Part shown: piece by piece, positions 1-32,800 of the stretch | Layout of the letters: every line of letters starts with the position of its first letter | Numbering within the stretch: position 1 is the first letter of the stretch | Origin: an uncultured Clostridia bacterium | Lineage (GTDB): Bacteria; Bacillota; Clostridia; Christensenellales; UBA1242 | Direction: 5' to 3' | DNA: 64,000 nt | NCBI GenBank assembly: GCA_944377485.1 | Contig: CALWFB010000007.1 | Location: forward strand, 1-64,000 | Translations under genes and position numbers: made by a program | Notes under the pieces: generated by a model | What the model saw: the letters and a program-made list of their open reading frames with translations, nothing else | Told to the model about the DNA's origin: nothing | Database searches by the model: none

Positions 1-1424
<1,424 letters not shown>

Positions 1425-2182: not shown

Positions 2183-3610
2183 TTATTCAGTAGTAGGAAT
2201 TTCGTCTAATAAACCTCCACTATTTTCAATCAATTCAAAGAATACATTGATAATATCGTTCAATACAAGATTTTTAACTTGTTTGTACTCCGGCATCTCA
2301 GATGAACCTACATTTATATATTTGTTGTTTATTCCTGTTCCATCGTCAACCGCCCCACCAGAAGATGAATAATAATTATTTGGAACATCAACCACACCTG
2401 CTGAAATAAGCTCATCAATTGTGCTACTTTCTAATGCCGTAGATAAAGCATTTGATAAATTTGAAATTGTTGTAGAACTATCTATTAATGATAATGCACC
2501 AGAACTTAAATCTTCACTAGAAAATAAATCACTAATGGTTAATGTATCAATTCCTTCGCTTAATCCTGAAACTGTGAAATCTGCGATTGCATTCATCACT
2601 CCTTCCACTTTTGTTCCATCTTTATCGTAATATACTTTTTCATCACTATTATAAGTATAACCCAAAACTTCTGCAATGGTTAGGTTATTAATAGTAGATT
2701 CAAGGTTATCCAAATCTCTTATTGTCGTTTTTGCCACTGTTGCCATAACTCCGACAATTTCCTGACCAAATTCGTCATATACTCTATCTCCCTGAATAGT
2801 ATAATTCAAGAAATCGGCAATATATAATTTATTTATTTCATCTTCTAACTCACTAATTGGTGTAGAATCGTCAACTTTATCTAGGAATGAAGGAAGAGTA
2901 ATATTATAATCATCTCTCAATTCGCCTATTGTAATATTTTCATCTAAATTTGATGTAAATGAAGACACAGCCTCAGTTAAAGGGATATATCTTAATGCTA
3001 CAACAACTTGCCCTGACATTAAAGCAAACTCATTACTTTTTATAATAACTTTTGAATTCGCCAAATCAACCGTATAATCAAAATTAACTTGATTCAAATA
3101 TTCTTGTTCTTTGTATAATTTATTATCTGTAGAATTAAAATAATAGGTATTTGTTTTATTCAATATTTCATCGATATCGGACAAATCTACTACATTTTTC
3201 AATTCATCAGCACTAATGTTAGATAATTTATTTTTAACAGCATCCATCATTTCAGGAAGCGGAACATTTTTTAAATCAGTAATATCAATACCTGCAATTT
3301 CGTCATTAATTTTAATTCCAAAATCAGATTGTAAATCATTAAGAGTATAAGTATCAATATTTTTACCTAAATTAATTGCATGACTAACAAAAGTACTTAA
3401 AGTTAAACTATTCAAATCTTCATTACCTAAATCAATTTCAGTATTAAACTTATCATTAATCCAATTCGGAGTCACTTTGAAATAGGCAAATGCACCTATA
3501 CCTGCAATTGCACCTATACCTAATAGCAAACCAATTAAAGTTCCAAAGAAAAACGAACCAACTGACCTATTTCTTGGCTTTCTTTCAATTTTTCCAATTT
3601 GTTTACTCAT
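2183..3610 (-). CDS. Membrane-anchored extracellular repeat protein, function unknown
   Basis: A 475-residue protein with a basic N-terminus and a single glycine-rich membrane helix (about residues 17-45), followed by an acidic, Asn/Ser/Thr-rich outer region. This implies a type II anchored surface protein. The outer part carries repeats of about 45 residues. Two clear copies share the pattern L-x-I-A-(D/E)-x-L-x-Y-T, then V-Y-(Y)D-x-x-G, then G-V-M-x-x-(I/V)-A, then T-(I/V)-x-(D/G)-L. A weaker third copy begins TLTISDLF. A GGGGTAAAT site precedes the ATG, and a terminator follows the stop. It stands alone between the rRNA operon and the Smr gene. I recognise no family and no enzyme motif. 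Confidence 0.85.
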   Translation of the reverse strand: MSKQIGKIERKPRNRSVGSFFFGTLIGLLLGIGAIAGIGAFAYFKVTPNWINDKFNTEIDLGNEDLNSLTLSTFVSHAINLGKNIDTYTLNDLQSDFGIKINDEIAGIDITDLKNVPLPEMMDAVKNKLSNISADELKNVVDLSDIDEILNKTNTYYFNSTDNKLYKEQEYLNQVNFDYTVDLANSKVIIKSNEFALMSGQVVVALRYIPLTEAVSSFTSNLDENITIGELRDDYNITLPSFLDKVDDSTPISELEDEINKLYIADFLNYTIQGDRVYDEFGQEIVGVMATVAKTTIRDLDNLESTINNLTIAEVLGYTYNSDEKVYYDKDGTKVEGVMNAIADFTVSGLSEGIDTLTISDLFSSEDLSSGALSLIDSSTTISNLSNALSTALESSTIDELISAGVVDVPNNYYSSSGGAVDDGTGINNKYINVGSSEMPEYKQVKNLVLNDIINVFFELIENSGGLLDEIPTTE

Positions 3611-3661
3611 ATTTACCCCATTTATAGTATTATGGCATAAATTACATTAAAAATAAAACGA

Positions 3662-3705
3662 TTTATTATAAATTTATGAAATTAAATGATGAATTTTATA
3701 ATAAA
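3662..3705. repeat. AT-only inverted repeat behind the Smr gene
   Basis: TTTATTATAAA (3662-3672) faces TTTATAATAAA (3695-3705) across a 22-base loop. It lies just past the Smr stop codon and upstream of the next gene. It may be a weak terminator or mRNA end stabiliser. There is no G/C in the stem and no clear T tract. Confidence 0.4.
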
Positions 3706-3708
3706 CCT

Positions 3709-4050
3709 TTATAAAATGACAATAGAACAACCCGAATTTAATAAATACAAATCTCTATCTGCAAGTAGGTCTGGACAATAATTTATGGCGATTTTTCTAA
3801 CTACATTGTTTGGCATCCATCTATCGCAACAAGTGTAATCTTCAATTTTTCCTCTTCGTTTCAACTCCTCACATTTCTTTAAAAATTGTACCTTTATTGC
3901 ACCACCTACTCCGTGACTGCCATATCCGTGAATGACTTTCATTACCTTGTAGCCACCCTTTTTATAACTCTCTACTTCTACCAAAAATTGAGCGATTGCT
4001 TCACTCACAGTTTGTCTATCAGATTTGATATCAATAGTAATCAATTCCAT
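3709..4050 (-). CDS. Small Smr-domain protein
   Basis: A 113-residue stand-alone Smr (small MutS-related) domain. The signature HGYGSHGVGGAIK is present. It is preceded by the family's usual N-terminal pattern, a strand LITIDIKSD followed by T-V-x-E-A. Smr domains in this family bind branched or structured nucleic acid, some nick it, and several act on ribosomes. I chose the ATG at 4050 because the conserved domain begins at once; a TTG ten codons upstream (4080) is in frame. Neither has a clear Shine-Dalgarno. The C-terminus (WMPNNVVRKI and beyond) extends past the signature. The domain call is firm; the cellular role is not. Confidence 0.85.
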   Translation of the reverse strand: MELITIDIKSDRQTVSEAIAQFLVEVESYKKGGYKVMKVIHGYGSHGVGGAIKVQFLKKCEELKRRGKIEDYTCCDRWMPNNVVRKIAINYCPDLLADRDLYLLNSGCSIVIL

Positions 4051-4129
4051 AAATTTATTATATAAAAATTCGTATAACAAATCAAATAAATGTCAGTATT
4101 TACTTATAATTAAAATTCAAATAATCAAC

Positions 4130-4157
4130 AAAAAAAATAAACAGCATTAAGCTGTTT
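4130..4157 (-). terminator. Terminator of clpX, embedded in the end of the gene
   Basis: AACAGC(ATTA)AGCTGTT stem followed on the minus strand by a T tract. The 5' arm encodes the last codons and stop of clpX. Confidence 0.8.
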
Positions 4158-5421
4158 GTTTTTTCTCTTTTAGTTTTGGTTTTGATTTTATAATCTTTGC
4201 TTTTGATTTTTTATTAATGAAATCAGCTGTGATAACAATCTTTTCAATATTATCTTCAAAATGGTAACTATACATAACGTCAAGCATGCGTTCTTCCAAG
4301 ATTGTTCTCAGTCCTCTTGCTCCGGTCTTTAATTCAATTGCTTTTCTAGCAACGGCAGTAATTGCCTCTGGTTCAAAGGTCAAGTCAATACCGTCCATCT
4401 TGAACATTTGAATATATTGTTTTGTGATAGCATTCTTTGGTTCAACCAATATTCTTTCCAACGCTTTTTCATCAAGACTATCAAGAGTGGCGACAATAGG
4501 AAGTCTTCCCACGAACTCTGGAATCATTCCATATTTGATTAAATCTTGCGGTTGAATATTTTCAAACTTATTGATAGATTCTTCCATCTCTTTCTTCTTC
4601 ACACTGGCACCGAAGCCTAATGACGATGCTCCATTACGTTCACTGATGATTTTATCAAGACCTACAAAGGCTCCACCACAAATAAATAAAATATTTGTTG
4701 TGTCAATTTTAATATTTTCTTGTTGCGGATGTTTTCTACCTCCCTGAGGTGGAACGGAAGCAATAGTACCTTCCAAAATCTTTAATAGTGCTTGTTGTAC
4801 ACCTTCTCCACTAACATCTCTTGTAATTGAAACATTTTGTGTCTTTCTAGCAATCTTGTCAATTTCATCTATATAAATAATACCTCTTTGTGCCTTTTCT
4901 ATGTCATAATCAGCATTTTGTATTAATTTTAATAGAATATTTTCTACATCATCGCCAACATAACCAGCCTCAGTCAATGCAGTAGCATCACTAGAAGCGA
5001 ATGGCACTTTTAGCGTTTTAGCCAGTGTCTTAGCTAGCAAAGTTTTTCCGCTACCAGTAGGGCCGACCAAAAGCACATTTGATTTTTCAAGCTCTACTTC
5101 GTCTTGCGAGTTATCTCGTTTGACCATATTATAATTGATTCGTTTATAATGATTATAAACAGATACAGCCAAAATTTTTTTAACTTCATCTTGACCAATT
5201 ATAAAATCGTCCAATTTTTGTTTGATTTCTTGCGGTTTTATTAAATCAATAAATTCATTTTTTTCGCTCTCTCTTGTGCGATTGTTGAAATCCATTAGGT
5301 CTTTACAAATATTTAAACAATCTTTACAAATGAAGCAATCACCTTCTGGATTGCTGATAATATCGGTCAATTCACGTGCTGGACGACCGCAAAATGAACA
5401 AATAGTTTCTATCTCTTTCAT
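4147..5421 (-). CDS. clpX: ATP-dependent Clp protease ATP-binding subunit ClpX
   Basis: A 424-residue AAA+ unfoldase that recognises, unfolds and threads substrates into ClpP in the cytoplasm. The N-terminal zinc-binding domain has CSFC and CKDC pairs within the first 36 residues. Walker A GPTGSGKT lies at about 120-127 and Walker B is IIYIDEID. The ClpP-docking IGF loop appears as LGF (SSLGFGAS). The C-terminal AAA small domain contains TGARGLR, followed by a lysine-rich tail. I start at the ATG at 5421, behind AAGGAG; an upstream in-frame TTG adds six residues without an obvious site. It is third in the usual tig-clpP-clpX order, 57 bases after clpP. Confidence 0.97.
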
Positions 5422-8258: not shown

Positions 8259-9167
8259 TTATTTTGAAATTAAATCAATTACATTTTGAAAATATTCTGG
8301 CAATTCAACCTGAAATTGCATATTTTTTTTGCTTCTTGGGTGAACAAAATTGATTTTATAAGCAAATAATAACTGTCCGTTTGTTTTAATATTTTTATCC
8401 ACTCCTCCATACAACACATCTCCCACAATTGGGTGATTTATTGATTTTAAATGTGCTCTAATTTGATGCGTTCTTCCTGTGGTCAATTTACAATTCAATA
8501 AAGTATAATGGTCAAATACTGCATCAACTGTAAAAATTGTTTTGCTATATTTCCCTTTGTCTGACTGAGTTAAAATCATCTGTTCTCTGTTTTTCGGATT
8601 GCGCATTAGATAGCCCTCAATGGTAAAATCCTCTTTAATTCTTCCTTTGATTAGTGCTTTATATTCTCTATTAAGTGTTTTGTCCTTTAATTGTTCACTC
8701 AAAAATTTATGAGAATTATCATTCTTTGCTACAATCATCAGTCCGCCAGTATCCTTGTCTAATCTATGAACTATCCCAGGGCGTAGCACACCATTGATTG
8801 TTGATAGGTTCTTGATGTGATACATTAATGCGTTAACTAATGTATGAGATTTTGTGCTAGCACATGGGTGCACGACTAATCCTACTTGTTTATTGATAAC
8901 CAATAAATCGTCATCTTCATAAACGATATTTAAAGGTATATTTTCAGGTGCCGTATCAATCTTTTGAATAGGTTTTTCTTCTATACTAATGCTATCTCCA
9001 ATTTTCAATTTATATCCAGATTTTTTTATTTCATTATTAACTAAAATCCTCCCTTCATCATTTAATGTTTTTAAATAACTGCGTGAAAAATTGGTATGAT
9101 TAACTAAATAAACATCTAATCTTGTATCCACATCTGAAATGTCGTTAATTTTTAGATTGATTATCAT
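8259..9167 (-). CDS. rluD: RluD-family 23S rRNA pseudouridine synthase
   Basis: A 302-residue pseudouridine synthase of the RluA/RluD group. Residues about 14-63 form an S4 RNA-binding domain. The catalytic domain follows, with the signature HRLDKDTGG (134-142) and catalytic Asp137. The later R-T-H-Q-I-R-A-H motif is present as GRTHQIRAHL. The start overlaps the end of lspA by 23 bases behind a GGGGAAG site inside lspA. The lspA-rluD order is common in Bacillota. The exact uridines modified cannot be read from sequence; RluD-type large-subunit targets are the best guess. Confidence 0.92.
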   Translation of the reverse strand: MIINLKINDISDVDTRLDVYLVNHTNFSRSYLKTLNDEGRILVNNEIKKSGYKLKIGDSISIEEKPIQKIDTAPENIPLNIVYEDDDLLVINKQVGLVVHPCASTKSHTLVNALMYHIKNLSTINGVLRPGIVHRLDKDTGGLMIVAKNDNSHKFLSEQLKDKTLNREYKALIKGRIKEDFTIEGYLMRNPKNREQMILTQSDKGKYSKTIFTVDAVFDHYTLLNCKLTTGRTHQIRAHLKSINHPIVGDVLYGGVDKNIKTNGQLLFAYKINFVHPRSKKNMQFQVELPEYFQNVIDLISK

Positions 9168-9618
9168 TTTTCTTCCCCATAAAGAATAATATAAATACTG
9201 CCATCATTACTGCACCTATACATAAAAATGTATCAGCAAAATTGAACACAGGGAATGTTGGCCAAAAATCTAAGAAAATAAAATCTCTCACATATCCTAA
9301 AAATAATCTATCTATCAAATTTCCTATTGCACCACCGACAATAAAACCAAAAGAAATCGAATAAAAAATTGATTTGGTTTTCACGAAATAATTAAATATA
9401 AACAATGCGATTATCATTATAATACTGACAATTATTAAAACTATCGTGCTATCACTGAACATTCCAAACGCTGCCCCAGTATTACCATGATTAGTCGCAA
9501 TAGATATCACATTAGGAATAAGATTAAAATATTCTACTTCAAATAAAAAATGTTTGGTAATAAGGTCTATTACCAAAACACCAATTATTGAACATATAAT
9601 TGTAATCCATTTTTTCAT
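9145..9618 (-). CDS. lspA: Lipoprotein signal peptidase (signal peptidase II)
   Basis: A 157-residue integral membrane aspartyl peptidase that cleaves the signal peptide from prolipoproteins. Four membrane helices are visible. The two catalytic aspartates lie in GNLIDR (Asp103) and FNFADT (Asp129). The conserved NxGAAFG stretch appears as NTGAAFG (46-52). It overlaps rluD by 23 bases and follows sepF after 79 bases. The upstream site is poor: TTGGAG lies 16 bases before the ATG. Confidence 0.95.
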   Translation of the reverse strand: MKKWITIICSIIGVLVIDLITKHFLFEVEYFNLIPNVISIATNHGNTGAAFGMFSDSTIVLIIVSIIMIIALFIFNYFVKTKSIFYSISFGFIVGGAIGNLIDRLFLGYVRDFIFLDFWPTFPVFNFADTFLCIGAVMMAVFILFFMGKKNDNQSKN

Positions 9619-9697
9619 TCAAACGAATCCATGCTCCAATTCTTTAATATACGGCTAAATATTTATTGCTATTGATTAGAAAATAATAAGTTTCAAT

Positions 9698-10150
9698 TTA
9701 CTTATTGCTTTGAGGTGGATTTTCTGGGCGAAGAATTTTATGACCCTCAGGAGTCAATAGAAACAAATCTCCATGCCAGCGATGAATGCTTCCGTTAAGT
9801 CCATAGATTGCTCCTGACAAAAAATCTAGAATTCGCATTCTATCTTCATCTGCTATACCTTCTAAATTAACTGCTATGGACTGACCCTGTTTTAAATAAT
9901 CTATAACTTGTTGAATTTCTTTATGCGTCTTAGGTTCAACCATAATTATATTAGATTCTGGTTGAAGTCCGAAACCATTAAAGTTTGTCCCAGTAGGCAT
10001 TGAGTCAAATGAATTTGTCTCACCTGCCACACGCTCATGAAGGTTGAAATTCGCATATTTGTCGTCTTGGACAATAGTTTTTGATTTTTTATCTTTCTTG
10101 TCTTTATCATCAAAGCCCAGTCCTCGCATTACCCAATCAAAAAAACCCAT
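9698..10150 (-). CDS. sepF: Cell division protein SepF
   Basis: A 150-residue SepF, a membrane-binding partner of FtsZ that shapes the division septum in Gram-positive bacteria. The N-terminal amphipathic helix MGFFDWVMRGLGF is the expected membrane anchor, followed by a charged linker. The C-terminal domain (about 68-142) has the usual pattern. It runs from N-I-I-M-V-E-P-K through VIDYLKQGQSIAVNLEG and RILDFLSGAIYGLNG to FLLTPEG. A TAGGTGAATT site overlaps the stop of the upstream 81-residue gene, so the two are coupled. Confidence 0.95.
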   Translation of the reverse strand: MGFFDWVMRGLGFDDKDKKDKKSKTIVQDDKYANFNLHERVAGETNSFDSMPTGTNFNGFGLQPESNIIMVEPKTHKEIQQVIDYLKQGQSIAVNLEGIADEDRMRILDFLSGAIYGLNGSIHRWHGDLFLLTPEGHKILRPENPPQSNK

Positions 10151-10157
10151 AATTCAC

Positions 10158-10403
10158 CTATGAACCAAAAATTTGTTTTTTCAATAAATCGTACTCTGCA
10201 TCAGTTGCTATATTAAATTCCTTTACAACTCGTTCGTATATTGCAATCACTTCTTTGTTTTTTGTCTTAGTTTTGGCTTTTTCAAGCATCTTTTCTGCCA
10301 CTTTTATTGCGCCTTTTCTGTCTAAACGATTATCAATACCCACGATTGTTTCAATTACGTCCATGCACTTGTTTTCAAATTCTTCGGTATTTAATTCAGC
10401 CAT
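10158..10403 (-). CDS. Small helical protein at the head of the sepF cluster, unknown
   Basis: An 81-residue, charged, probably all-helical protein without signal peptide or membrane segment. I chose the ATG at 10403, behind AGAGGTG; a GTG two codons upstream is possible. It is first after a strong promoter (10425-10453) and its stop overlaps the sepF ribosome binding site, so it should be made together with SepF. It is too small and too polar to be YlmG and lacks the S4 domain of YlmH. Position suggests a division or envelope role, but this is inference only. Confidence 0.75.
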   Translation of the reverse strand: MAELNTEEFENKCMDVIETIVGIDNRLDRKGAIKVAEKMLEKAKTKTKNKEVIAIYERVVKEFNIATDAEYDLLKKQIFGS

Positions 10404-10424
10404 ACACACCTCTACTTTATATAT

Positions 10425-10453
10425 ATTTTAATAATTAGCACTACTTTTGTCAA
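10425..10453 (-). promoter_or_regulatory. Promoter of the sepF-lspA-rluD cluster
   Basis: On the minus strand, TTGACA (10453-10448), 17 bases, TAAAAT (10430-10425). The -35 is consensus. The leader before the first ATG is about 16 bases. Confidence 0.7.
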
Positions 10454-10603
10454 CGATTTCAATTATTTTAGCTGTTTTGTAGATAAAATAATTAAGTTTT
10501 TAAATTCTTTTTTATATTCTATTATAATTTTTTGATAATTTTTGCAAACCTAAAAAATGATGGTTTTTATATAGATTATATAAATTTTATATTATTGATT
10601 AAT

Positions 10604-10630
10604 AAAAAAGTCCGCAAAGCGAACCTTTTT
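10604..10630 (-). terminator. Terminator of the giant surface protein gene
   Basis: On the minus strand, GTTCGC(TTT)GCGGAC with one T-G pair. It is extended by A-T pairs and followed by six T. It lies about 10 bases past the stop at 10641. Confidence 0.8.
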
Positions 10631-10640
10631 ATTTCAATTT

Positions 10641-13600
10641 TTATTTTTTCACAATTATAGCAAATTGCAAATTATATTGCGTTTCACCAGCTTCTCCTGT
10701 AATTATTGTAAACAATATTTCTAGTTGAGTCGCATTTGGGTTCTCTGTGAAATATTGATTTATCAAACTTGCATTTAATGTTATTTTTCCTGTATAATTC
10801 CCATCAACGACTTCTATTGTCGCATAAGTAGAATTGTTTTCCATAATTGAGGACACTAAACCTACATTTGTACTAACTAATTCAGTTAATTTTGCATTTC
10901 CAAATCCATCTAAATCATCAGGATTATATATATACAAATCTTTATCTAATAAATTCGCTTGTATGTTATTTATTCCATCACGATCAACTGAAACAAATGG
11001 ATTTTCTGGAAGTTGATAATTAACTCTAAATGTTAAACCTACACCATTATAATTTGCTGAATAATTTACTCTAATTGCAGTTGATGTTGGATTATTATTT
11101 TTATACTGTCTTAATGTTTCTTGTTTGACAGTTATGCTAGTCGCTCCATCAACAGTACTATATTTAGTCTCCTGTTCTGCAACGTTAGTCAACATACCAG
11201 TCGTTCCTTCCGCTCCATATGCTGTCTTAGTAAATGTTCCGTCATCTGCATTTGCATATGTCGCAAATTTCCCATTCAAATCTAAAACAGAATCTCCATT
11301 AGTATAGTTAACTTGGAAGAAGTATGATTGTATGTTAGTGCCATAGTCTACTGTCACAATCTTTCCGGAGCTTACAAATATAGCATAGAACGATGCTTTT
11401 AGATTATACAATCTATCACCAGTTCCTGTATATGATATTTCATATAAGTCATATGTTGTACTTTCGACAGTAATTGTACCAATTTTATCCTCCGCTTCTA
11501 CTGTTTCGGCGCTGACTGTTGCACTAGTTGAAACCCAATTAGTAGGAACAGTTGTAGTAGTTGTACCAACACCTATAACGTTATAGTTTAGATATGTCGT
11601 GCTATCGCATTGAGTGGTCAAGAACACATCTCTAACTCTAAATTGCCCTTTTGCGGTGATTGCATTGCTTGTTGTTAACTTAAATCCTGCATTCAAACTG
11701 CTATCAAATGCATCTACATGTACCACTGCATTTCCGCTAGACATTATATCCAAACCAGCAATTAATTCATTGTTAAATAGTTGATTTGTTGATATGTCAT
11801 AAATATTATCCGTAGCGGTCATATCAGATGAAGTACGAGGAGTTGTTAAATCTATACCAAATCTACCTGCAATTCCATCAGTTCCATTTATATATGTTAA
11901 TGCAAAGTATATAGTTTCATTGGTTCCTGTAAATCCTGAAACAATATTGAAACGCACGCTATCAACAGAATCAATAAAGGTTTTGAAATTATCAATATTA
12001 CTGAATGAACTACTGAATATTGACCTATTAGTAATAATATCACCTGTCTTATATTCTCTATTTGAAATTACGCTTCTAGTTGTTGTGTATTCTTTTCCTT
12101 CAATTGCTAAACCTGTATTATCCAAAATTCTAAATGTATAATTTTCACCGCTTTGGTTGATTTGAATTTTATAATTTGAAGATGTGTATTCGCTACCACT
12201 TCTAGTGTAAGTTCCACCATATGTAGTATTGTCTGCGCCAGATAATACCACGTCCATTACAACATTTTTGCTACTATCTAATCTCAATGTAAAGCTATTT
12301 CCCTTTTCATCAGAATATTGTTCAGCAAAGTAGAACATATCAACAAACAGTTTAGTACCACTATCTGCTTCACTGATTATATCATTATTGACATCAACTG
12401 ACAAAGCATCTGAATTTGCTGTGACTGTTGCACTGTTGTATACCTTGTATGTGACATAATAATAGATTGTAGTTTGGTCTAGATAAGTGAATGCAAATCT
12501 ATATGTGACATTATAGTATACATAGTTAGGTCCACTAGACTGAGGCACACTTGGCAATGTAATTGGAACACTATTATCTCTAAATATATTAGTCAATGCT
12601 GGCGGAGTCACACTTATTGAACTACCGTTATTGAATGTAGTATCCGCATCAAAGGCTGTATCTGTGAAATTAGATATTACATAACTAATATTCAACGTTA
12701 TAGAACTAATAGTATTATTTATATTATTAGCAGTATTGACAGAATCTTCTCTAATCTGACCTACTATATCCGACATTATAACGCCCGTTTCGTCTTTTGA
12801 TGACATGCTGACAATGTCTACTTGACTTCCTGATGCAAACGCTTCTCCATTATCTTGGACAAGAATTGCATTTTCGCCAGCGACTGACTTGTAAGTCAAT
12901 GTGACAAATCCCAACACATTTATATTCCAATAAACTGTATATGTACCATTTTCTCCTAGATTAATATCTAATCGCAATCTCAATAATCCTGTGAAGTCCT
13001 TGTGAATATTAATTACAAAATCATCAATATTCACATAATCGCTACCCCAACTTGAAACTTCTGTAATCAAAATGTTATTTACATCAGTTATCTTTCTATC
13101 TGTTCCATCAGCCGTATACAATTCTAACAATAAATCTATATAATAAGATGTCCCATCATATTGAACAGTATTATCTCTACTGTTATTAATCGTATTTAAA
13201 TCTTCCGAATAATCCAAATCGCTATCCGCTGGCGGTGCGCTAGCTAAGATATTAGAAGTCATCATCAAATAATTTGAATAGAACTCATTATCTCCACTTG
13301 TTAAAGAATTAGAATTTACTCTGAAATCAAAGTTTGGACGTAGCATGAAATTATATCGTATTGAACCGAGATAATATCCCCAATCGTCAACAACTCTAAA
13401 TGTCAAACTAACACTTGCATTTGCTCCAACTGCATTTGTCATTATTATATTATTAGTATTAGAATATTCAAATAGATTATTAATTTCATCAGTAATGTAA
13501 TATCTTGTACCATTTAATAGATATGAACTTGCTGTCGTATCTAATTCTGCATTTTCAATTCCTAATGTTCCTGAACTTGCATTAGATATAATTGAAATCT

Positions 13601-16600
13601 TTTCATTCAAATTAATTGGTTCAGTAGCATAAATAGAATCGTATGTAGTAGAATAATCACTCTCTAATTGATAATTATAGAATTTAACTTCAAATAATTT
13701 AGTAATAAATGTACTATTATCACTATCATATTTACTTATGACATGTCCTGAATCTACATATATTCTCATAATTATAGAGAATCTTTCAAACAATGCACCA
13801 GAATCTCTTTCAAGTCCTACATATAGACGTTTGCCAGTGCCTAGTCTTAAAGTCACTCTAATTCTATCTTGAATATTTAATACATAAACAATGTCATCAG
13901 GATAAGCCTCAATTTCACCTTTGCCAAATCTCTCTACTGTATAATCGGTTATACTTCCAACACCACTCATAGACAAAGTGAAATCAGTAATATAGAATGC
14001 ATTGTTATTACCATCAAATAGTGTCGCAACATGATTACCTAGCATCATAGTTTCTCCATCGATAGATGAAGTTTCTCCATATACATAAGGTGTTCTTTCA
14101 TCATTGTCATTTATCGTCAACGCAACATAATCCTTTAATGTTCCTGTATCAAAAGTGCCATGGGTATCAACTTGATAATCAAATCCATCTCTATATTCTG
14201 AACTGCTCATTACTTGGTAAACATAAATAATATTTCCTACACCTGCATTATTGCTTAAATACAAATTAGATAATGTGTTGGCACTGACGGTTGAGAATGT
14301 CAAAGCGGAGCCAACTAAATTCATGTTTTCACCAGCAGTAAATCGAACATAGTTAGGATTATCAGAATCTGTAAATCCTATTGCACTTGGAGTATATCCT
14401 AAATATTGATTTCCATCTAAATCAATAATCGCTAATCGTTTAGCATTCACCAAATTAGTTGTTTTAGCCGTATCTGTTGAATCATAAATTTCATCAGTAC
14501 TATTAGTAAACAGTGCAGCATATATATCTGTTATTGAATATCCACTGACAACATTTTCATGTGTAGCATCTTTAATATAATATACTGATGCTATTCCAGC
14601 ATATGTTCTGACAACTTTAATATAGAAGTTTAGTTGTAAATCTTCTCCACTGCTTTGATAAATATTTCCATCGCCATTTTTAACTTTTATGTAAAGGATT
14701 AATGGTTTATCTTCTGCTGTATGAACAAAGTTAACTTTTTTCCCTCCATCTATATTAACTAGATAGTTTGCATCAGAAAGAGTGATATCCAAGGTGCTCG
14801 CTACATTTGTATAAATATTTAATCCACCTACATAATATCTAGTCACACCAGTTAAGTCATTATTGCTTGAATTAATTGTAATACTACTACCATAATCACT
14901 GATATATAATTCTGCATTGTTTTCACTGACTAATGTAGAATCAAATGGATTATCCTGACTATATCCAACACCAGATTGAGGTTGTGAATAATATAATCCG
15001 CTCAATACATTTGCTGTAATTGTCTTTGAATATACTGTTCCATTTTCGTCTACAATATTGTCAAGACGGATTACAAATTGTTCTGTATATGCTGCAGTTA
15101 TTTGGTCAAACACAAAATAGCTTTTATTTCCTTCTTTCTCATATGTCATTCCTCGTCCGGAAGCAAAAGTAATTATATCTCCACTATCAGTTTGCGCAAC
15201 GAGATTATTCACTGTCCCATCTGACAAGTCAATGGTGGCAACCTCTGTTCCTCCATATATTACGGTTAAATTTTTGTTGTATCCACCAATAATTGTAGAT
15301 AAATCAATTCTGTTGTCAAAATAGCTATTTACAGCTGTTTCATCATTGTTTTGAACAAATGTACCAACAGTAATTTGCACTGCATTATTGTTTACACCAA
15401 TTTCTTCGTACGTATAATGTACGAGCAATACGAATCTAGTATCACTATCTCCAATTGTGTAAATATATTTCACTGTAAATTGCAAATCTTCATTATTAAT
15501 ATAACTAACAAAATTAATTGTTGTTCCGTCAAGTCTAATTATTGTACTATTATTAGAACTGATTGTATTTGACGTATATGTATAATCGTCATCTTGTTCT
15601 ACAATTTCAGCAGACCAATTACCACCAATTGGAGAACCTGCCACTCCATTTTCTCTATTAAACACTTCGGTAAATGGATTTGCATAAGTTTCAATATCTG
15701 TAGTAATCGTCTTAGTGTATTCACCAGTACTTAATCCTGAAATTGATGGAGTAATATCATCATATGTCTCAATATATGCAGGCAACACATAGACAATCAA
15801 TGTACCAACATAGAATTTAGTATTGCTTGAATCAAACACCATTCCTATTGTCAATTTAGTATAATTGTTAATTATTGGCAACTGCTTATCATCAATTTTA
15901 TGTTGTCTAGCATAGTTATCAGCAATTAATTCATAATAATCACCCTCAACCATCTCAGCATCTAATAGGTAGAAATCCACATTTTGATAATTGATGCTTG
16001 CGCCAAAATGTTCATTAAAGAAATTAGCATCTATGCTTTGTCCTAAGAACGCATTGTTTGCAATAAATGTATTCTCTGTCCTTGCATCGATTGTTGAATT
16101 AAACGTAAATGTATTAGTATAATCTACATTATTATAATTTGTATTCATTTGATTATACAAATACACAAAGTAATATCCAACACTTCCAGATTCAGAAGTT
16201 ATTTTAAATATAAAATAACCATATCCACCATTACCAAAGGTTATGTCTTGATTGAATGTGACTGTCTTGTTTTCATTATCTATAACAATTTTACCACTAT
16301 TATAGTAATTAATAGTGTTTCCTTTGTTCTGATATGCAACTAATTCAATATTAAAATCCGCATCAAGATTACGTGTATTATCTTTCGAATTTGATATAGC
16401 AACACGCCCAACTGATTGTATTTCATCATATACAAAATTCATTGTTTGACCCATATTTACAGGTTCAAAATATGAATTAATAGTCACTTGATATGCGTTA
16501 TTGCCTTGTGATACACCATTAAGGTTGTTTGCGTCCATTTCAATACTATCACCCACAAATACATAAGACGTAGTAGTGCCAGTCAACCTTTCATCAACAA

Positions 16601-19600
16601 ATGGTGTAGTAATCTCAATATATTGTCTATTTGTAATTGTCAATTCACGAGTAAATGTATATTCTACTCCATCACTATAAGTAATTTTATAAGTAATTAT
16701 AACAGTTTTTGTATTACCTTCAATCTCATTAATAATAGCATCAGCACCATAATTTTGACTTCCGATATAACCGCTGCCTATAAATGAAGTATTAGCAAAT
16801 AAACTTTCATCATCAACTGATTCAACGACCATTGAACTAATTAAATTACTTCTATCAGCCAACTCGCTCAATAACCCATCTAAATCAAACATGTCATTTA
16901 ACAAATCATATGCTTCATCACTATTTAATCCTGAATATGCTGGTATATCTTTTTCATCTGGAATTAGTGGTATTACGCAGATTGCATATGACGAATCATC
17001 TCCACTAAGCGATGTCGAAGTAGTATATATTAATACATTATCAGTGCTTTCATCTACAAATGTAAATGTTAACACTACATTATCAAACTTATTTGATAGA
17101 TTTGTATTTAATCTAAATCTATTTCCAGACAAAACTTCAAACTGTAAATTAGATAAATTTGACTGAATACTAGATAATACGAATTTAGGATTGTCTTTGA
17201 TTTCAATAAATGACTGATAATTTATATTAGACATTATATTATAAATATTGTCGGAATAATCAGGATAATCATCACCTTGTGTCTCTCTTGAAATAGTATA
17301 GAAATTATTCAATGTTATATCTGAATTTAATAATTCAATATTTCTAACAGCATCACCTACATTATAATTGTAATTTAATGTTATATTTTCTATTATAGTT
17401 TGACCTATATTTTCAATCCAATTAACAGTAAATGTTGATGCAGCACTATTGACTGTGATATTTGAACCTGTTGAAGTCAATGACACATTAGAATAACTAC
17501 TAAATTGTTCTAAATAGTCCTCTGTCTTTGGATAAATACCTACACTTTCGCTACCATAAATCACACCTGTTTTAAAACTAAACAAATCTACAAGGTCGCT
17601 GTAATTATAAGTGTTTCCTCCATAATAAATGTTGTCTTTCAAGGTAGCAATTACATTTGGTATAACATTAATTGTGTATGATTCTAATTCTTCATTGTTA
17701 TATACAAAACTAAATCTATATGAACCAGGGTCTGTGAAAGTGTATTCGGCATTATCTATTTGAATTGGCGAACTTGAACCATTAATGTAAACTTGACTAG
17801 AAATTACAGCTCCTGAAATTGTGTTTTTAATTTTAAATACAGGTTCGTTAACGCTCTCACCTGTTTCTGACTGTTCATATAACAACACAGTCGTTCCCGC
17901 ATAGAAATTATCCCAGTTTGAATTGATATTAATTTCAACACTTGATGTAAATGTCAATTCAAAAGATATTGTCTCACATGCTTTCACGTTTATATTAAAT
18001 CTGATGACCAAACCAGCATGAAGATAATTTATTCGTGTAAATTTCCATGAAGTTTCATCACTTTCAATAGTTAAAACTGTTATTTTTTCTTCTTCTGTAT
18101 CATTTGTGACAATATTAATAGCTGTATCTGTATATTCAGTTATTAAATCTCTGTCACCACCAAAGCTTATTTGAGTTATCTCTAATGTGACATTTTGATG
18201 ATTTGTGGCTAATAATTCGTTGCTTCCATTATTGTTGTAAGTATAACTAACATAATCGCTCAATGAAACATTAATGTCCTGTGTTGAAGCTTCTCCAATG
18301 CCTGCATCAATGCTAAATTTGCTCTCACCTGTTGATGTTTTTTCTGTATCAACCACAATTCTAAAATATCTAGTAATGTCATCACTATTAACCGCAACTA
18401 CCGTTGTCCCTATTTTGTTGATAACTAAACTAAGTCCATTATCTGTATTAAAATCTGCCACACTTGGAGTATTTGAACTATAAGTTATATCTTTTGCAAT
18501 TCCGTTGATTGCAGGCAAAACTTGGAAGCCCTCTGTGATGACTCCGTTTGTGAATGAATTAAAGATTTTAGTATACAAATCTGTCGAGACTTCTTTTTCA
18601 ACATTGTTGGTTGAATCAACTATATAATACTTATAAGTATATCCGCCAGCACCACCATTTGCATTAATATCATAACCCAATTCTACTTTAATATAGAAAT
18701 TTGATGTCAAAGCATCTTCTGGTGTTTGTGCTAGATTAACTGTATATACGACATCTGTATTCGTTCCATCTGTATACTTGAATTGAATATCTGTTGCAAT
18801 TGTACTTTCTATATAAATTTTATCTGATAGAATCTCTTTGTTGTTATAGCCAAGCACAATTCGCAAATATGAATCTGTATTTGATAACGCACTAGTGCTA
18901 TTGTATGATAAAACTAAACTATCTCCAACAAATTCTATATTTGTAATTTCAAGAGCATTAGAATTTTCAGACACTAAATCATTAGATGCATTATACATAT
19001 TGATATGTATATTTTCCATATCAAAACCACGTGCATAGTATATGTCTTGCAACATATCAGGTACATCAGATGTCAAAGTTAAAGTATGATTTTGTGTATT
19101 TTCAACAACAAACACATTTCCATCAACAATGTTTATATAAGTATCTCCTCCTTCTGGTGAAGGTGTACCATCAATACTTCCCGGGTTATAATTAAAGTCA
19201 ATTTCTTCTGTTAATAAATCATAACTAACAGTTATAGTCACTTTTCTAGCATCAGAAATATAACTATTCACCACATCAGCAACTAATTCTTTATCCTGAG
19301 TTTGACTTCTATTTCCTAAATAGACATCTTCCCCCTCACTATTTAAAGATACAAAACTACAAATATAAGTAATATCATTTATTGTCACAATCAAATTGTC
19401 ATTTTGTACAGAAATTGAACTAATTGTAGCACTATTATCTTCTAATGTTGCGGCAAGTTCACCATTAAACATCGTGACATTTACGTATTTTGTTTCAGTG
19501 GTACCCTCTTGGTTTTCCATTTGGATTGAATATTTTAAAGTAATATTATTATTTTCATTTTCAATAATTTCTTGTATGTATTGACTAGCAGTTTGATTGT

Positions 19601-21650
19601 ATTTATTTTGCAATTGAAGCATGTAAATTACAGTACCTGAATTTCGTGCACCTTTTCGGACTTTTACGTTGTTTACAAACTTATCACCTTGCATATATCC
19701 GACTAAGACATATTCATTATCCAGAGCATCAATAAATGTCATGCCTTCAATAACTTCAATATCATAAACTTGACCCGCTTCAATATTTACTTTTGGAGTG
19801 ATAAATACACAAGCATCATAGCTGCCATTTGTTATATTTACAATTTCGCTCAATTCTAATTCTGGATAAACGGCAGTAAATGTTTGATTTTCATCTTTTG
19901 AATATTGGACCTCTAAATTATGAGTTTGATTTTCTTCTACAAATTCAAAAGACAAGTCAACAGGATTAACTGTCACACCAGTAGAAGCAAAATATGCACC
20001 ACCATTATTATTAACAACTAATATACCTAAAACTAAACTTTCTGTTTCAGACAAATCTAACATATTTTTAGCAATTATATTCCAAGATTTAGTCGTTCCG
20101 CTACCAAAAGCTGTCGCAGTATAATCAAATGAACTTGCATTGATATATTGAACAGATTGTGTATTATATACGTAGAATTCTAAATAACTACCACTTTTTA
20201 GCAATTTAATGCTTGTTGTTCCATCTGCACCATTTTGCAAGAAAGCCGCACCGACTGAACATTCAAAATTAATAGTACTATCTTCATAAGTACAACTAAT
20301 TGAATCTATTAGTGTAGTATTGTTATTTACTGTAATATTATCTAATGTATATGATAATTGTATAGTATTTAAACCAGTAAGGTTTATTACATTTCTACCT
20401 AAATCAAAACTTATACCATAACTGCCATCAATTGCTCCAAAGCCTGAAATAGTGGCTGAATTTGCATTAAATGTTATAGTTTTTGTTGCATCGGCTGAAA
20501 GGAAAGTAATATAAGAATTCGACCAATTATTTGGATAATCTGTTTCATCAAGTGCAAATTCCACTTCATTAAATCTAATAGTGGTTGAACCTCCATCTTT
20601 AATCATATATAGACCGAGATTATTATCATTAGCACCTTCAACACCAGATTGCCCAGACAATGTAATGTAGTTATTGTCTGAATAAAGATTCAATGCAATA
20701 CCAGTTGAATTCATACCAACACTTGATATATCAGAATTAACAACATTAACAGTTAAATTAGTATTAACCATTCTAGATACTCTTTCGAAATATGAATCAG
20801 TTGTACTATTTTCACTGTTTAAATAATTCACTCTGTCTTGATAGGTCGCAAAAACCGCAATTTTAAATTCATATGTACCTGCAGTGTCAGTAGAAAAACT
20901 AAATTTTTGAGTATCGTTATCATAAGAAATAAATGAATAATTACTATAAGTATCCGAGTTAATTAGCACGTAGTCTGCTTGATTAGGGTCATCATAATAT
21001 AATTCAATTATTTTACCAGTCTCTCTACTAATTGGGTCAAGTGAATACTCTGGACTAGCGGTATAATTAAAATCAAATTTTACGTCAACGCCAATAGTTA
21101 TTTCTTGTTCACCGTTATATGCAGGTGTCGAGTCATAATCCAAAGCAACAGTTGACACTTCTCTATCTACCCAAATAGTTAAATTGTTTGATTGCACCTG
21201 ACTTCTGCTATCCCTTGCTTGCAAAATTACTTGTCCATAATTTGAATTAGAAAAATCCGTTTCTGAAACATCTTTAATTTTATAATAAACATATTCATTG
21301 CATTCAATATAATATCTATTATTTTCTGCTACCAAAGGTGTTCCATCCCTATCACAAAGAGTAATTAAGTCTGCACCTACGTTATTTAAAAAATAAATAT
21401 AACAATCTTTTTGATTAACTTCATATTCTTGATTATCTGAAAATCCATTCAAAACAAACGAGTATAATTTATCTCTATCATTTTCGCTATAAACAATGGT
21501 CTGTTCATTATTAATAAATTGTAATCTATTAGGATAGACCTCTGGTGTCTTGAATCGACCCATGAGAGCCATAATACCAAAAACCGCACCAACAAATAAA
21601 ATGATGCTAGCCAAAACTATTCCAATTACTTTAAAAATTTTTTTTGTCAT
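10641..21650 (-). CDS. Giant membrane-anchored surface protein (3669 residues), unknown
   Basis: An uninterrupted frame of 3669 residues. The N-terminus MTKKIFKVIG leads into one membrane helix (about 7-30). Everything after it is predicted to be outside the cell. The outer region is rich in Asn, Ser, Thr, Asp and Tyr and poor in Cys, with many short beta-strand patterns. It reads like a long string of Ig-like or other beta-sandwich modules. No signal cleavage site, LPXTG motif, C-terminal membrane helix or recognisable catalytic motif was seen. It ends plainly in AIIVKK. I saw no long exact internal DNA repeats. TAGGGGAAA precedes the ATG, and a terminator follows. The gene takes up a sixth of the window. 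An adhesin or cell-surface scaffold is possible, but function is unknown. Confidence 0.9.
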   Translation of the reverse strand: MTKKIFKVIGIVLASIILFVGAVFGIMALMGRFKTPEVYPNRLQFINNEQTIVYSENDRDKLYSFVLNGFSDNQEYEVNQKDCYIYFLNNVGADLITLCDRDGTPLVAENNRYYIECNEYVYYKIKDVSETDFSNSNYGQVILQARDSRSQVQSNNLTIWVDREVSTVALDYDSTPAYNGEQEITIGVDVKFDFNYTASPEYSLDPISRETGKIIELYYDDPNQADYVLINSDTYSNYSFISYDNDTQKFSFSTDTAGTYEFKIAVFATYQDRVNYLNSENSTTDSYFERVSRMVNTNLTVNVVNSDISSVGMNSTGIALNLYSDNNYITLSGQSGVEGANDNNLGLYMIKDGGSTTIRFNEVEFALDETDYPNNWSNSYITFLSADATKTITFNANSATISGFGAIDGSYGISFDLGRNVINLTGLNTIQLSYTLDNITVNNNTTLIDSISCTYEDSTINFECSVGAAFLQNGADGTTSIKLLKSGSYLEFYVYNTQSVQYINASSFDYTATAFGSGTTKSWNIIAKNMLDLSETESLVLGILVVNNNGGAYFASTGVTVNPVDLSFEFVEENQTHNLEVQYSKDENQTFTAVYPELELSEIVNITNGSYDACVFITPKVNIEAGQVYDIEVIEGMTFIDALDNEYVLVGYMQGDKFVNNVKVRKGARNSGTVIYMLQLQNKYNQTASQYIQEIIENENNNITLKYSIQMENQEGTTETKYVNVTMFNGELAATLEDNSATISSISVQNDNLIVTINDITYICSFVSLNSEGEDVYLGNRSQTQDKELVADVVNSYISDARKVTITVSYDLLTEEIDFNYNPGSIDGTPSPEGGDTYINIVDGNVFVVENTQNHTLTLTSDVPDMLQDIYYARGFDMENIHINMYNASNDLVSENSNALEITNIEFVGDSLVLSYNSTSALSNTDSYLRIVLGYNNKEILSDKIYIESTIATDIQFKYTDGTNTDVVYTVNLAQTPEDALTSNFYIKVELGYDINANGGAGGYTYKYYIVDSTNNVEKEVSTDLYTKIFNSFTNGVITEGFQVLPAINGIAKDITYSSNTPSVADFNTDNGLSLVINKIGTTVVAVNSDDITRYFRIVVDTEKTSTGESKFSIDAGIGEASTQDINVSLSDYVSYTYNNNGSNELLATNHQNVTLEITQISFGGDRDLITEYTDTAINIVTNDTEEEKITVLTIESDETSWKFTRINYLHAGLVIRFNINVKACETISFELTFTSSVEININSNWDNFYAGTTVLLYEQSETGESVNEPVFKIKNTISGAVISSQVYINGSSSPIQIDNAEYTFTDPGSYRFSFVYNNEELESYTINVIPNVIATLKDNIYYGGNTYNYSDLVDLFSFKTGVIYGSESVGIYPKTEDYLEQFSSYSNVSLTSTGSNITVNSAASTFTVNWIENIGQTIIENITLNYNYNVGDAVRNIELLNSDITLNNFYTISRETQGDDYPDYSDNIYNIMSNINYQSFIEIKDNPKFVLSSIQSNLSNLQFEVLSGNRFRLNTNLSNKFDNVVLTFTFVDESTDNVLIYTTSTSLSGDDSSYAICVIPLIPDEKDIPAYSGLNSDEAYDLLNDMFDLDGLLSELADRSNLISSMVVESVDDESLFANTSFIGSGYIGSQNYGADAIINEIEGNTKTVIITYKITYSDGVEYTFTRELTITNRQYIEITTPFVDERLTGTTTSYVFVGDSIEMDANNLNGVSQGNNAYQVTINSYFEPVNMGQTMNFVYDEIQSVGRVAISNSKDNTRNLDADFNIELVAYQNKGNTINYYNSGKIVIDNENKTVTFNQDITFGNGGYGYFIFKITSESGSVGYYFVYLYNQMNTNYNNVDYTNTFTFNSTIDARTENTFIANNAFLGQSIDANFFNEHFGASINYQNVDFYLLDAEMVEGDYYELIADNYARQHKIDDKQLPIINNYTKLTIGMVFDSSNTKFYVGTLIVYVLPAYIETYDDITPSISGLSTGEYTKTITTDIETYANPFTEVFNRENGVAGSPIGGNWSAEIVEQDDDYTYTSNTISSNNSTIIRLDGTTINFVSYINNEDLQFTVKYIYTIGDSDTRFVLLVHYTYEEIGVNNNAVQITVGTFVQNNDETAVNSYFDNRIDLSTIIGGYNKNLTVIYGGTEVATIDLSDGTVNNLVAQTDSGDIITFASGRGMTYEKEGNKSYFVFDQITAAYTEQFVIRLDNIVDENGTVYSKTITANVLSGLYYSQPQSGVGYSQDNPFDSTLVSENNAELYISDYGSSITINSSNNDLTGVTRYYVGGLNIYTNVASTLDITLSDANYLVNIDGGKKVNFVHTAEDKPLILYIKVKNGDGNIYQSSGEDLQLNFYIKVVRTYAGIASVYYIKDATHENVVSGYSITDIYAALFTNSTDEIYDSTDTAKTTNLVNAKRLAIIDLDGNQYLGYTPSAIGFTDSDNPNYVRFTAGENMNLVGSALTFSTVSANTLSNLYLSNNAGVGNIIYVYQVMSSSEYRDGFDYQVDTHGTFDTGTLKDYVALTINDNDERTPYVYGETSSIDGETMMLGNHVATLFDGNNNAFYITDFTLSMSGVGSITDYTVERFGKGEIEAYPDDIVYVLNIQDRIRVTLRLGTGKRLYVGLERDSGALFERFSIIMRIYVDSGHVISKYDSDNSTFITKLFEVKFYNYQLESDYSTTYDSIYATEPINLNEKISIISNASSGTLGIENAELDTTASSYLLNGTRYYITDEINNLFEYSNTNNIIMTNAVGANASVSLTFRVVDDWGYYLGSIRYNFMLRPNFDFRVNSNSLTSGDNEFYSNYLMMTSNILASAPPADSDLDYSEDLNTINNSRDNTVQYDGTSYYIDLLLELYTADGTDRKITDVNNILITEVSSWGSDYVNIDDFVINIHKDFTGLLRLRLDINLGENGTYTVYWNINVLGFVTLTYKSVAGENAILVQDNGEAFASGSQVDIVSMSSKDETGVIMSDIVGQIREDSVNTANNINNTISSITLNISYVISNFTDTAFDADTTFNNGSSISVTPPALTNIFRDNSVPITLPSVPQSSGPNYVYYNVTYRFAFTYLDQTTIYYYVTYKVYNSATVTANSDALSVDVNNDIISEADSGTKLFVDMFYFAEQYSDEKGNSFTLRLDSSKNVVMDVVLSGADNTTYGGTYTRSGSEYTSSNYKIQINQSGENYTFRILDNTGLAIEGKEYTTTRSVISNREYKTGDIITNRSIFSSSFSNIDNFKTFIDSVDSVRFNIVSGFTGTNETIYFALTYINGTDGIAGRFGIDLTTPRTSSDMTATDNIYDISTNQLFNNELIAGLDIMSSGNAVVHVDAFDSSLNAGFKLTTSNAITAKGQFRVRDVFLTTQCDSTTYLNYNVIGVGTTTTTVPTNWVSTSATVSAETVEAEDKIGTITVESTTYDLYEISYTGTGDRLYNLKASFYAIFVSSGKIVTVDYGTNIQSYFFQVNYTNGDSVLDLNGKFATYANADDGTFTKTAYGAEGTTGMLTNVAEQETKYSTVDGATSITVKQETLRQYKNNNPTSTAIRVNYSANYNGVGLTFRVNYQLPENPFVSVDRDGINNIQANLLDKDLYIYNPDDLDGFGNAKLTELVSTNVGLVSSIMENNSTYATIEVVDGNYTGKITLNASLINQYFTENPNATQLEILFTIITGEAGETQYNLQFAIIVKK

Positions 21651-21977
21651 TTTCCCCTACCTAAATACTTTTGAACAGACAATAATGAATTTAAAACGCA
21701 TTTGTAAATTTAGCCATCAATCTTATTATCTACAAAATCTCACAACATAATTATATATTTTTAAATCAAAACTGTCAAATAAAACCAAACTAAAATAAAT
21801 TATAATTTATTTGTTTAAATTTAAACGAAAAAAAACAAAAATTAATATAATGAAATTAAAACAATTTGACAATTTAAAATTTATTTTTTCAGTTTTAATT
21901 AGCAATTAATAAAAAAATATTTATATTAGCAAACTTAATAAATTAATAAAAAATATTTAAATTTTTAAAAAATTCAA
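21651..21977. other. Very AT-rich intergenic stretch
   Basis: About 330 bases lie between the start of the giant gene and the rsmA terminator. The right half is nearly all A and T runs. The giant gene's promoter must lie here, but I could not pick one with a convincing -35 and -10 pair. No reading frame or RNA gene is supported. Confidence 0.5.
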
Positions 21978-29838: not shown

Positions 29839-32800
29839 ATGAAAACTAGAAGAAATTTATTAAAAAACATATTATGTTGGCTTACCGCATTGGTATTAAT
29901 GTTATTTGCCAATATAGGTTTGATTAATCTTATTGATTTTGATGCTATTGTTTATGCAGCAAACAATATAGGACAAACAGAAATTACTATTCCTAATCAA
30001 GATTTCGACAATAGTCCTGATAGTGAATATCCGTTTGACCCAACAGGTTTTACTCCAAGTATGGATACAGAAACTGCTGGTGTTAATGCTGGTGTCATCA
30101 GTGTTGAAGATGAAGAATTTTCTAAATATAAAACTGATGAAACTTTTAGAGATGAATATGTATTAATGATTGATAGTACAATTTCTAGCGGTGAAGAATC
30201 TGATGAAACCGACCTATCTCATAATGCGAATTTCGGTTTTACGACTAACGATGCTATCACACTAAAAGCAGGGTCAAATTATTCTATATCTGTAGATGTA
30301 TATACTTCAAATACCGATGGTATTGGCACACTTTATTTATTTAATTCTGATGATAGTTCAAATCAGTCAATATATGCTAGCATATCAAATATCAGTTCAT
30401 TAAATCATTACACTACCTACACATTCTTCATATCGACCAATGACATAGAAGACGTAAATGTGAAATTGGGTATGTATTTAAGAGGTTCTGGTGTAATATT
30501 ATTTGATAATATCTCTGCATATGAATTGAATGCAAAAACTTTGAATAGAAACATTGAGAATCTTAATTCATCATCATTGTCTAACACATATGTTTATATT
30601 GATGAACGTGACAATTTAGTATCAGAATTTGATATGACTACAAATCCGTTTTCTGCTTATAGCTTTGAAAGTGGCAAAAATTCACCTGAATACACCACTG
30701 CCGAATTAGTTCAAAATTCTAATGATTTAGAAGCAAATGATGGAAGAACAAATTCTGCATTTAAAATCACAAACAAACAAGAAACATATGCTCAATACGC
30801 AACAACAGATGATTTCTTTGAATTTGAACAGAATACAGTATACAAAATTAGTATCTATGTAAAGACAAAAGATATTGATGGCAGTGCAAATCTTCAACTT
30901 GTTCAAACAAATTTGTCAGACAATGAAGAAGCGACAGATAGCGAAATATTAATTATCAGTTCAGATACGGGTGAAAGTGGCAACATTATCAATAATTATC
31001 AAGAATATACCTTTTATGTTCGTTCTAGCCCATTGAAATCTACTACTTTTAAATTAATTGTAGGTTTAGGAGATTCTGAAACTCCTACTACTGGTTCATT
31101 ATACGTTGCTTCAATTATAACAACAAAAGTTAATTATTCAACGTTTTCGAATGTTTCTACTGGAACATATGCTCAAACTATTGATTTAGCAGAAAAATAT
31201 AGTTTTTCAAGTAATGATTTATATTTTGACAATGGCAATTTTAATGATGTTCAAACAACTGATTATTCCAACCCATACCCCGCTACTCCAAATTCATGGG
31301 ACAGAGTTGACACTGGTGAACATGACCAAGTATATGGCGTAATCAACACTTCTAATAGCGAATTTGCCAAGTTAGATTCAACGAAATTTTCAAACCTTCT
31401 AAATCCTGGCGATTCATTTGGCATGAATGGAAGCAACAATGTTTTGATGATGTATAATTCAACTGCTGATATACAAAGTTATAGAAGTGCAACTAAAAGT
31501 TTATCAGCTAATTCTTATTATAAAGTGTCATTAGATGTACAAACTCAAAACACACCTGTTGAAATCCAATTAGTCAGCACTTTAAACGATAATGAAGTAG
31601 TTTTATCTTCAATCATCGTTGAAACCAATCTACGTGAATGGCAGACAGTCGCAATGTATTTATATACTGGGCATAGAGCAATGGATGTTTCAGTTAAAGT
31701 GGTTCTTGATACAGACAATTATGGCTACGCATATATAGACAATGTGACGTTTAATTACCCTATTCAGCCAACAGAAGACACCTTCAACAATGCAATTAAT
31801 TCAACCTATCAAATCAAAACTGATTTATCAGACTTAATCAGTTCTGACAGCGACACAGTCTTCTCTACCCCAAAATATTTTGATTCTTCTGATATTGAAA
31901 ATGTATTATCTGGCGTAGTAGACTTAACAAATGAAGAATCTATTAGACAAGTTGTTTCAAACAGCGCAAACTACTCAAACTTTACAAGTTTACAATCTGA
32001 TAATAAAAATGTTTTAGCAATTCGCTCATTAAATGACACTTATTACACTCTAACATCAAAAATTGGCTTTGATTTAACAAGTGGAAGTTATTATAAAATA
32101 AGTGTGTCCGTGTATACTCAAAATTTACAAATTTTAGATGAAAACGTTGATTCTGATTTAATTGGTGCAAGTATTAAACTTTCTAGTTTTGATGATACGT
32201 TTACTCAAATCGTCTCTGACGGACAATGGACAACTTACACTTTCTATATTAATCCTAACAGTGATACCACAACCTATTTAGAATTATCTCTTGGAAGTAG
32301 TTCTGCATCTGTTAGTGGAGATGTATTCTTTGGAAATATTGAATTTGTAGCTTTTGAAGAAGATGACTTAACCGAATACAATAATGCTCGTGAAAATTCG
32401 CATACAAAAATTCTTACTCAAACAACTACAACTGATGATACAACTGATGAAGACACCTCAGATGATAATGGAAACAACATTGATGTAAATACAATATTGT
32501 TGTATATATCAAGTATTCTATTCGCATTGGCAATAATCATCGCAATCGTTGGCGTTCTCATCAGAAAAATCAAATGGAAAAAACCAGTTAGAAAATCAAA
32601 AACTTCTTACGATAGAAATCGTACAGTGTCAAAACAATTATATCAACGCAAAGCAACTACAATGCGTGAAGCAAAACTTAGAGAATTAAACAATGAACTA
32701 GAAGCAATGCATGCTGAACGAAATCAATATGAAGAAGAATATAAATCTGACCTATCTAAATTGAGAGAATTAAAAATTAAACGTGCAGACATGTCAGAAA

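Follow-up and report, generated by a model that had tools for sequence, protein, structure and literature searches.

The giant gene of the window (the whole stretch of 64,000 nucleotides analysed here) encodes a predicted type II membrane protein that would extend from the cell as a rod of some 30 Ig-like domains. Its most likely role, proposed with moderate confidence, is that of an adhesin or tether in a genome-reduced, possibly partner-dependent family of gut Clostridia. The gene itself, its own transcription signals, its conservation in the family as a single copy and purifying selection are supported by sequence and by comparison between genomes. The one anchor and the tandem Ig-like fold are supported by prediction. 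The outward orientation, retention in the membrane, rod length and binding role are what we infer.

The gene and its signals

The following elements define the gene.

10641..21650, minus strand: giant gene, 3,669 aa; product predicted to be a rod of tandem Ig-like domains, anchored in the membrane as a type II protein (open reading frame, orthologues, models)
21750..21778, minus strand: promoter TTGACA-17-TATAAT, 12/12 consensus, 99 bp upstream of the start codon
21723..21737, minus strand: leader motif TTTTGTAGATAATAA, conserved in the genus
21654..21665, minus strand: ribosome binding region TTTAGGTAGGGG, directly 5' of the ATG
10601..10633, minus strand: intrinsic terminator hairpin and T run, GGTTCGC-TTT-GCGGACTTTTTT, after the stop codon

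The original prediction of an unbroken frame at 10641-21650, which was silent on the strand, is borne out on the minus strand: the 3,669 codons contain 0 internal stops, and the plus strand has stops throughout the same interval. Promoters matching 11-12 of the 12 consensus positions were found at most 300 bp upstream of all 26 complete orthologues from the genus. The leader core TGTAGATAATA is present in 19 of these 26, and most genus orthologues have an exact or near-exact copy of TTTAGGTAGGGG, in agreement with the predicted ribosome binding site. The predicted terminator is likewise seen as the hairpin following the stop codon, and the 146-nt stretch downstream of the gene has a folding z of -4.1, though a simple terminator scan listed none on the minus strand. 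Since a consensus promoter, leader motif and ribosome binding site lie upstream, and a hairpin with a T run downstream, the gene probably forms its own transcription unit.

The combined -10 and leader pattern (21723-21755, minus strand) has a single occurrence in the whole genome of the window when up to 3 mismatches are allowed, and thus a regulon defined by the leader motif was rejected. An inverted copy of this motif with two mismatches, possibly a chance occurrence, was observed at 10475-10489 (plus strand), just past the 3' end of the giant gene.

The gene occupies about 1.1% of its genome (1.02 Mb in 23 contigs). As originally claimed, it lies among housekeeping genes, with ksgA, valS and groEL on one flank and sepF, lspA, an rluD-type pseudouridine synthase gene, tig and clpX on the other. 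Between the giant gene and sepF there is a small ORF (81 aa; 10158-10403, minus strand) that has an 11/12 promoter of its own. The contig end cuts a 16S rRNA gene at 1-1424 (minus strand).

Anchor, composition and absence of repeats

Two features of the N-terminus were delineated.

21558..21641, minus strand: membrane helix and exit, residues 4-31, with conserved G21xxxG25, A28 and G31 (genus alignment, hydropathy, model)
21051..21650, minus strand: N-terminal module, residues 1-200, anchor and first beta domain, common to the bacterial family (profile searches)

The only hydrophobic segment of the protein starts within residues 1-17, and the C-terminus, ...NLQFAIIVKK, has no second one; the single N-terminal helix claimed at the outset is thus supported. 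In the genus alignment G21, G25, A28 and G31 are invariant or almost so. Judged from the sequence, the protein would have type II topology and be located at the surface.

The composition is dominated by N (10.4%), T (10.3%), S (9.2%) and D (7.3%), as had been noticed before, and the protein is strongly acidic (197 K+R versus 464 D+E). There are 10 cysteines; two of them, C83 and C117, hardly vary within the genus and might pair.

Long DNA repeats had been reported absent. Indeed, only short, weak repeats were found within the gene, with no tandem array; blastp detected no internal similarity in any of the 25 giants examined, and at the profile level the best of 1,035 hhalign segment pairs of the window protein reached a probability of only 15%. 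In this it differs from giant adhesins built of repeats (SiiE, DDxP type).

The window protein matches no Pfam family at E <= 1, which covers cadherin (the likeness is in fold only), the C-terminal DUF5776 of the Apilactobacillus proteins Giant1-5, AsmA/TamB and SLH, though an Ig-like resemblance to S-layer proteins is present. No NCBIfam family was matched, and sequence searches against solved structures gave nothing useful. Sortase anchoring (LPXTG) does not fit either: there is no C-terminal hydrophobic stretch, and sortase was found in none of ten sampled genomes of the family, its own included. The claim that the protein belongs to no recognised family therefore stands for Pfam and NCBIfam, but not for the fold, which is recognisable: the models are strings of Ig-like beta-sandwich domains.

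Predicted fold

Residues 1-1150 and 1201-2350 were modelled by AlphaFold2 with 11 sequences, with the C-terminal part of about 1,320 residues (2351-3669) outside the models. The mean pLDDT was 76.5 and 83.5, respectively. Both models are almost wholly beta strand save the N-terminal helix, which is modelled at low confidence. Structure prediction in pieces, suggested earlier as a way to classify the domains, thus gave strings of small all-beta domains, nearest to cadherin, Ig and S-layer rods. The following domains are predicted.

21153..21542, minus strand: predicted beta domain 1, approximately residues 37-166 (model, structural alignment)
20736..21155, minus strand: predicted beta domain 2, approximately residues 166-305, Ig-like matches with Z about 6-7 (structural alignment)
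18801..19223, minus strand: predicted domain, residues 810-950; nearest match an Ig-like domain of invasin (Z 8.0, rmsd 2.4 over 96 residues)
14601..18050, minus strand: string of predicted beta-sandwich domains, residues 1201-2350, mean pLDDT 83.5 (model)

The best Foldseek matches in the PDB are mostly tandem Ig-like or cadherin-like rods and Ig-like S-layer proteins (SbsB, SbsC, Sap and EA1 among them), with E down to 1e-22; those in BFVD are mostly generic Ig-like phage proteins. Structural realignment of single domains gave Z of 6-8, and Z values up to 8 may reflect only a common arrangement. A tandem beta-sandwich rod over both modelled regions is well supported by the models, and these values back such a rod, not membership of any named superfamily.

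Within the aligned ranges the domains are spaced by about 110-160 residues, and therefore the whole protein would contain roughly 30 Ig-like domains. An Ig-like domain is about 4 nm long, which would give the rod, if extended, a length of some 100 nm.

Conservation and selection within the genus

Residues 1-3,000 of the window protein, used as query, found relatives in 30 of the 34 genomes of the genus, its own included, and none by single-sequence search in the other genera sampled. In two further genomes (G003 and G022) this locus holds giant ORFs of 4,225 and 3,807 aa, respectively, matched by profile, giving 32 of 34 in all. In one of the remaining two genomes, G021, neither ksgA nor sepF was seen; the other, G007, is split into about 100 contigs.

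Complete copies number 26, with lengths of 3,235-4,225 aa (mean 3,553, sd 198), and their identity to the window protein goes down to 19%. Frameshifts or premature stops in close relatives had been named beforehand as grounds for refutation; no internal stop or break was found in these 26 copies. Because 26 orthologues keep a complete open frame, the ORF is not a chance one. In eight pairwise comparisons of related copies, dN/dS was 0.07-0.25, a rough estimate as dS, at 1.2-2.9, is near saturation. The comparison of sequences thus supports the original claim that selection keeps the gene intact, and this selection is purifying.

The giant gene adjoins ksgA in all 25 loci where ksgA is assembled. 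The distances between giants agree with those between the KsgA proteins (Mantel r 0.74, with a maximum of 0.48 in 2,000 permutations) and are about twice as large. Horizontal or phage origin is disfavoured by the position, the single copy and this agreement.

Conservation is highest in the membrane-proximal 250 residues, whereas the last 170 rank with the least conserved parts. From base to tip, identity falls from 91% to 42% between L112 and L113 and from 76% to 49% between the window protein and L035; the drop is smaller in the closest pairs. Occasional known domains occur at the tip. The L041 giant has a Listeria-Bacteroides repeat at its end, and the L127 giant (genus g23, 8561-15838, minus strand) has a transglutaminase-like domain at residues 2179-2286, near the end. 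The faster evolution of the tip could also result from relaxed constraint.

Spread across the bacterial family

A profile built from residues 1-330 matched 136 of 247 genomes of the family (E <= 1). With a profile of the first 200 residues of 27 giants, applied to genomes at least 90% complete at E <= 1e-4, matches were obtained in 166 of 195 genomes from 27 of 38 genera, nearly always one per genome. As the other 29 of these 195 gave no match at this threshold, the rod may not be universal in the family.

In a sample of the order, members of the family had E below 1e-8 and genomes outside it gave only weak matches, with E of 5e-7 or worse. Reading of these weak matches revealed no convincing relative elsewhere in the sample. 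Those in family f17 (short, E 1e-7 to 1e-3) come from unrelated proteins, in which a long cytoplasmic head is combined with a similar helix.

All 20 copies retrieved from other genera for comparison are strongly acidic and have one N-terminal hydrophobic anchor; a few giants have isolated internal windows just above the hydropathy threshold. Similarity between giants is colinear and nearly always runs from N-terminus to N-terminus, and nearer genera align over thousands of residues, e.g. 3,266 of 4,618. The length depends on the genus: about 1,150 residues in g78, 1,480 in g17 and mostly 1,820-2,000 in g13, with longer proteins in g19 (3,600-3,830), g12 (4,000-4,650) and g71 (up to 5,699). The window protein has the traits of the whole set, namely the N-terminal helix, a GxF-x4-(I/V)xP-like motif, the first beta domain, a single copy and an acidic body free of repeats. 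By these sequence comparisons its gene appears to be no isolated oddity but a member of a usually single-copy gene family across one bacterial family.

Genomic neighbours and host cell

Outside the genus, the giants have as neighbours a cardiolipin synthase-like gene, an ABC-F gene, or a flippase or AbrB-like regulator gene (names read from sequence), and no constant partner gene was seen across the other genera examined. A role in cell division, considered because of the neighbouring sepF, is disfavoured, as in the other genera examined sepF is near neither ksgA nor the giant.

Several other surface protein genes were observed. In three genera a lipoprotein-like gene with Ig-like sequence lies just upstream of the giant (L128, 96-3347; L131, 2176-3567; L141, approximately 240-1800; all plus strand). 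Near ksgA in L062, L068, L069 and L071, from other genera, there is a separate giant type I family with a conserved C-terminal helix and a ...KLRTRMKVR-like tail. The window itself encodes a BspA-like leucine-rich-repeat surface protein at 59990-63916 (minus strand), partly similar to the streptococcal HupY/LrrG adhesin, with tandem DNA repeats of 144 and 249 bp at 60225-60980 within its gene. Two large surface proteins of opposite topology, with the membrane helix at the C-terminus followed by a charged tail, are encoded at 29839-33027 (plus strand) and 44779-48666 (minus strand), the latter with a weak bacterial Ig-like match.

The sampled genomes of the family contain penicillin-binding transpeptidases (10 of 10), and thus the cells presumably have a wall. 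The gamma subunit of F-type ATP synthase was found in none of 17 genomes of the family (f1). Judged from this and from its order, genome size and number of genera, the family is probably UBA1242 of GTDB (PMC12306168). One reduced-genome family of the same order is believed to rely on partner cells; for such bacteria, uptake of metabolites from partners has been proposed, and many hypothetical membrane proteins are described (PMC12306168). Such genome-reduced gut bacteria occur widely among animals, are uncultured and are presumed to live off other cells (PMC12306168).

Possible role of the rod

The simplest reading is a membrane-rooted rod that crosses the wall. The short basic N-terminus would stay in the cytoplasm and the GxxxG helix would remain uncleaved in the membrane, while about 3,630 residues would pass outward as differing Ig-like beta-sandwich domains. 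The rod would reach past the Gram-positive wall, and since the bacteria appear to lack sortase, the helix would be the only anchor visible in the sequence. A genome-reduced gut bacterium would use such a rod as an adhesin or tether to other cells, mucus or particles. The modest per-domain fold matches (best Z 8.0) and the many roles of Ig-like sandwiches weigh against this reading, and no binding site or ligand was found on the protein.

The main rival, possible but not probable, is that the protein serves as a structural coat or spacer: present in many copies, it would cover the cell like a brush or an S-layer, shield it or keep the envelope together, and have no dedicated ligand. The S-layer proteins among the fold matches and the strong conservation of the N-terminal domains agree with it, the consensus promoter and conserved leader could signal high expression, and strong acidity suits a repulsive cover. 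However, Pfam detects neither SLH nor any other wall-binding domain in the window protein, and the fast-evolving tip with its occasional domains suits a binding role better. A distinctly unlikely alternative is that the helix is cut and the rod released, either into a biofilm matrix or into the surroundings. Giants of Apilactobacillus, 3,000-8,000 aa long, were indeed found in culture supernatant (PMC12863079), but here the helix is long and has conserved glycines, and a small-x-small cleavage site is not evident from the sequence. The combination of one N-terminal helix with a long, beta-rich, repeat-free body is also that of AsmA/TamB-type proteins, and a lipid or metabolite bridge was considered for this topology. 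It is disfavoured by the predicted fold, as both models match strings of beta-sandwich domains and not a continuous groove; there is no AsmA/TamB match in Pfam, although absence from the list of families does not in itself exclude it. We regard such a bridge as very improbable.

Relation to known giant proteins and significance

The adhesin of Mobiluncus mulieris has 7,651 residues with 51 repeat domains containing built-in cross-links (PMC10619420). Like the adhesin or tether proposed here, it is a long Ig-like chain from a giant single gene; unlike it, it consists of repeats, which are undetectable here, and the sampled genomes lack sortase. SiiE of Salmonella, a 595-kDa adhesin of 53 repetitive BIg domains with type I secretion (PMC5466336), is also a long rod of bacterial Ig domains, whereas the domains of the window protein have no detectable mutual sequence similarity and its N-terminal helix would serve as the anchor. 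Apilactobacillus kunkeei Giant1-5 have a signal peptide, internal repeats and C-terminal DUF5776 domains and are encoded in a five-gene cluster (PMC12863079). They share with the window protein an extracellular location (here predicted), a small-genome Firmicute host, richness in asparagine and partly beta-sheet domain arrays, but here there is one gene, with an apparent membrane anchor and neither repeats nor a DUF5776 match. The best fold matches within residues 810-1102 are the Ig-like domains of invasin and FdeC (1cwv and 4e9l, Z 8.0 and 7.7), although no sequence similarity to them was detected. Invasin is anchored by an outer-membrane barrel.

The nearest kinds are thus giant Ig-like adhesins (Mobiluncus, SiiE) and the Apilactobacillus giants. 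The present family is set apart by the apparent N-terminal membrane anchor, the absence of detectable repeats, the absence of sortase in the sampled genomes and the usually single-copy spread through most of a bacterial family. A full-text literature search for Christensenellales together with "giant protein" retrieved no paper.

These observations suggest that giant rods of bacteria, unlike textbook giant adhesins, can be ancient, passed on vertically and devoid of recent repeats; the domains of the present one would then be comparable position by position across genera. A bolder and rather doubtful extension is that one such vertically inherited, repeat-free giant tether marks a family of genome-reduced, possibly partner-dependent gut Clostridia. 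Each genus would have its own rod length, between about 1,150 and 5,700 aa, and a tip that chooses the partner cell or surface, and the tether would be a core device for living as an epibiont or scavenger outside Patescibacteria. A usually single-copy giant surface protein that takes up about 1% of each roughly 1-Mb genome is a concrete candidate for partner contact, and the occurrence of such rods once per genome across most of the family suggests a core device for touching or holding other cells or surfaces.
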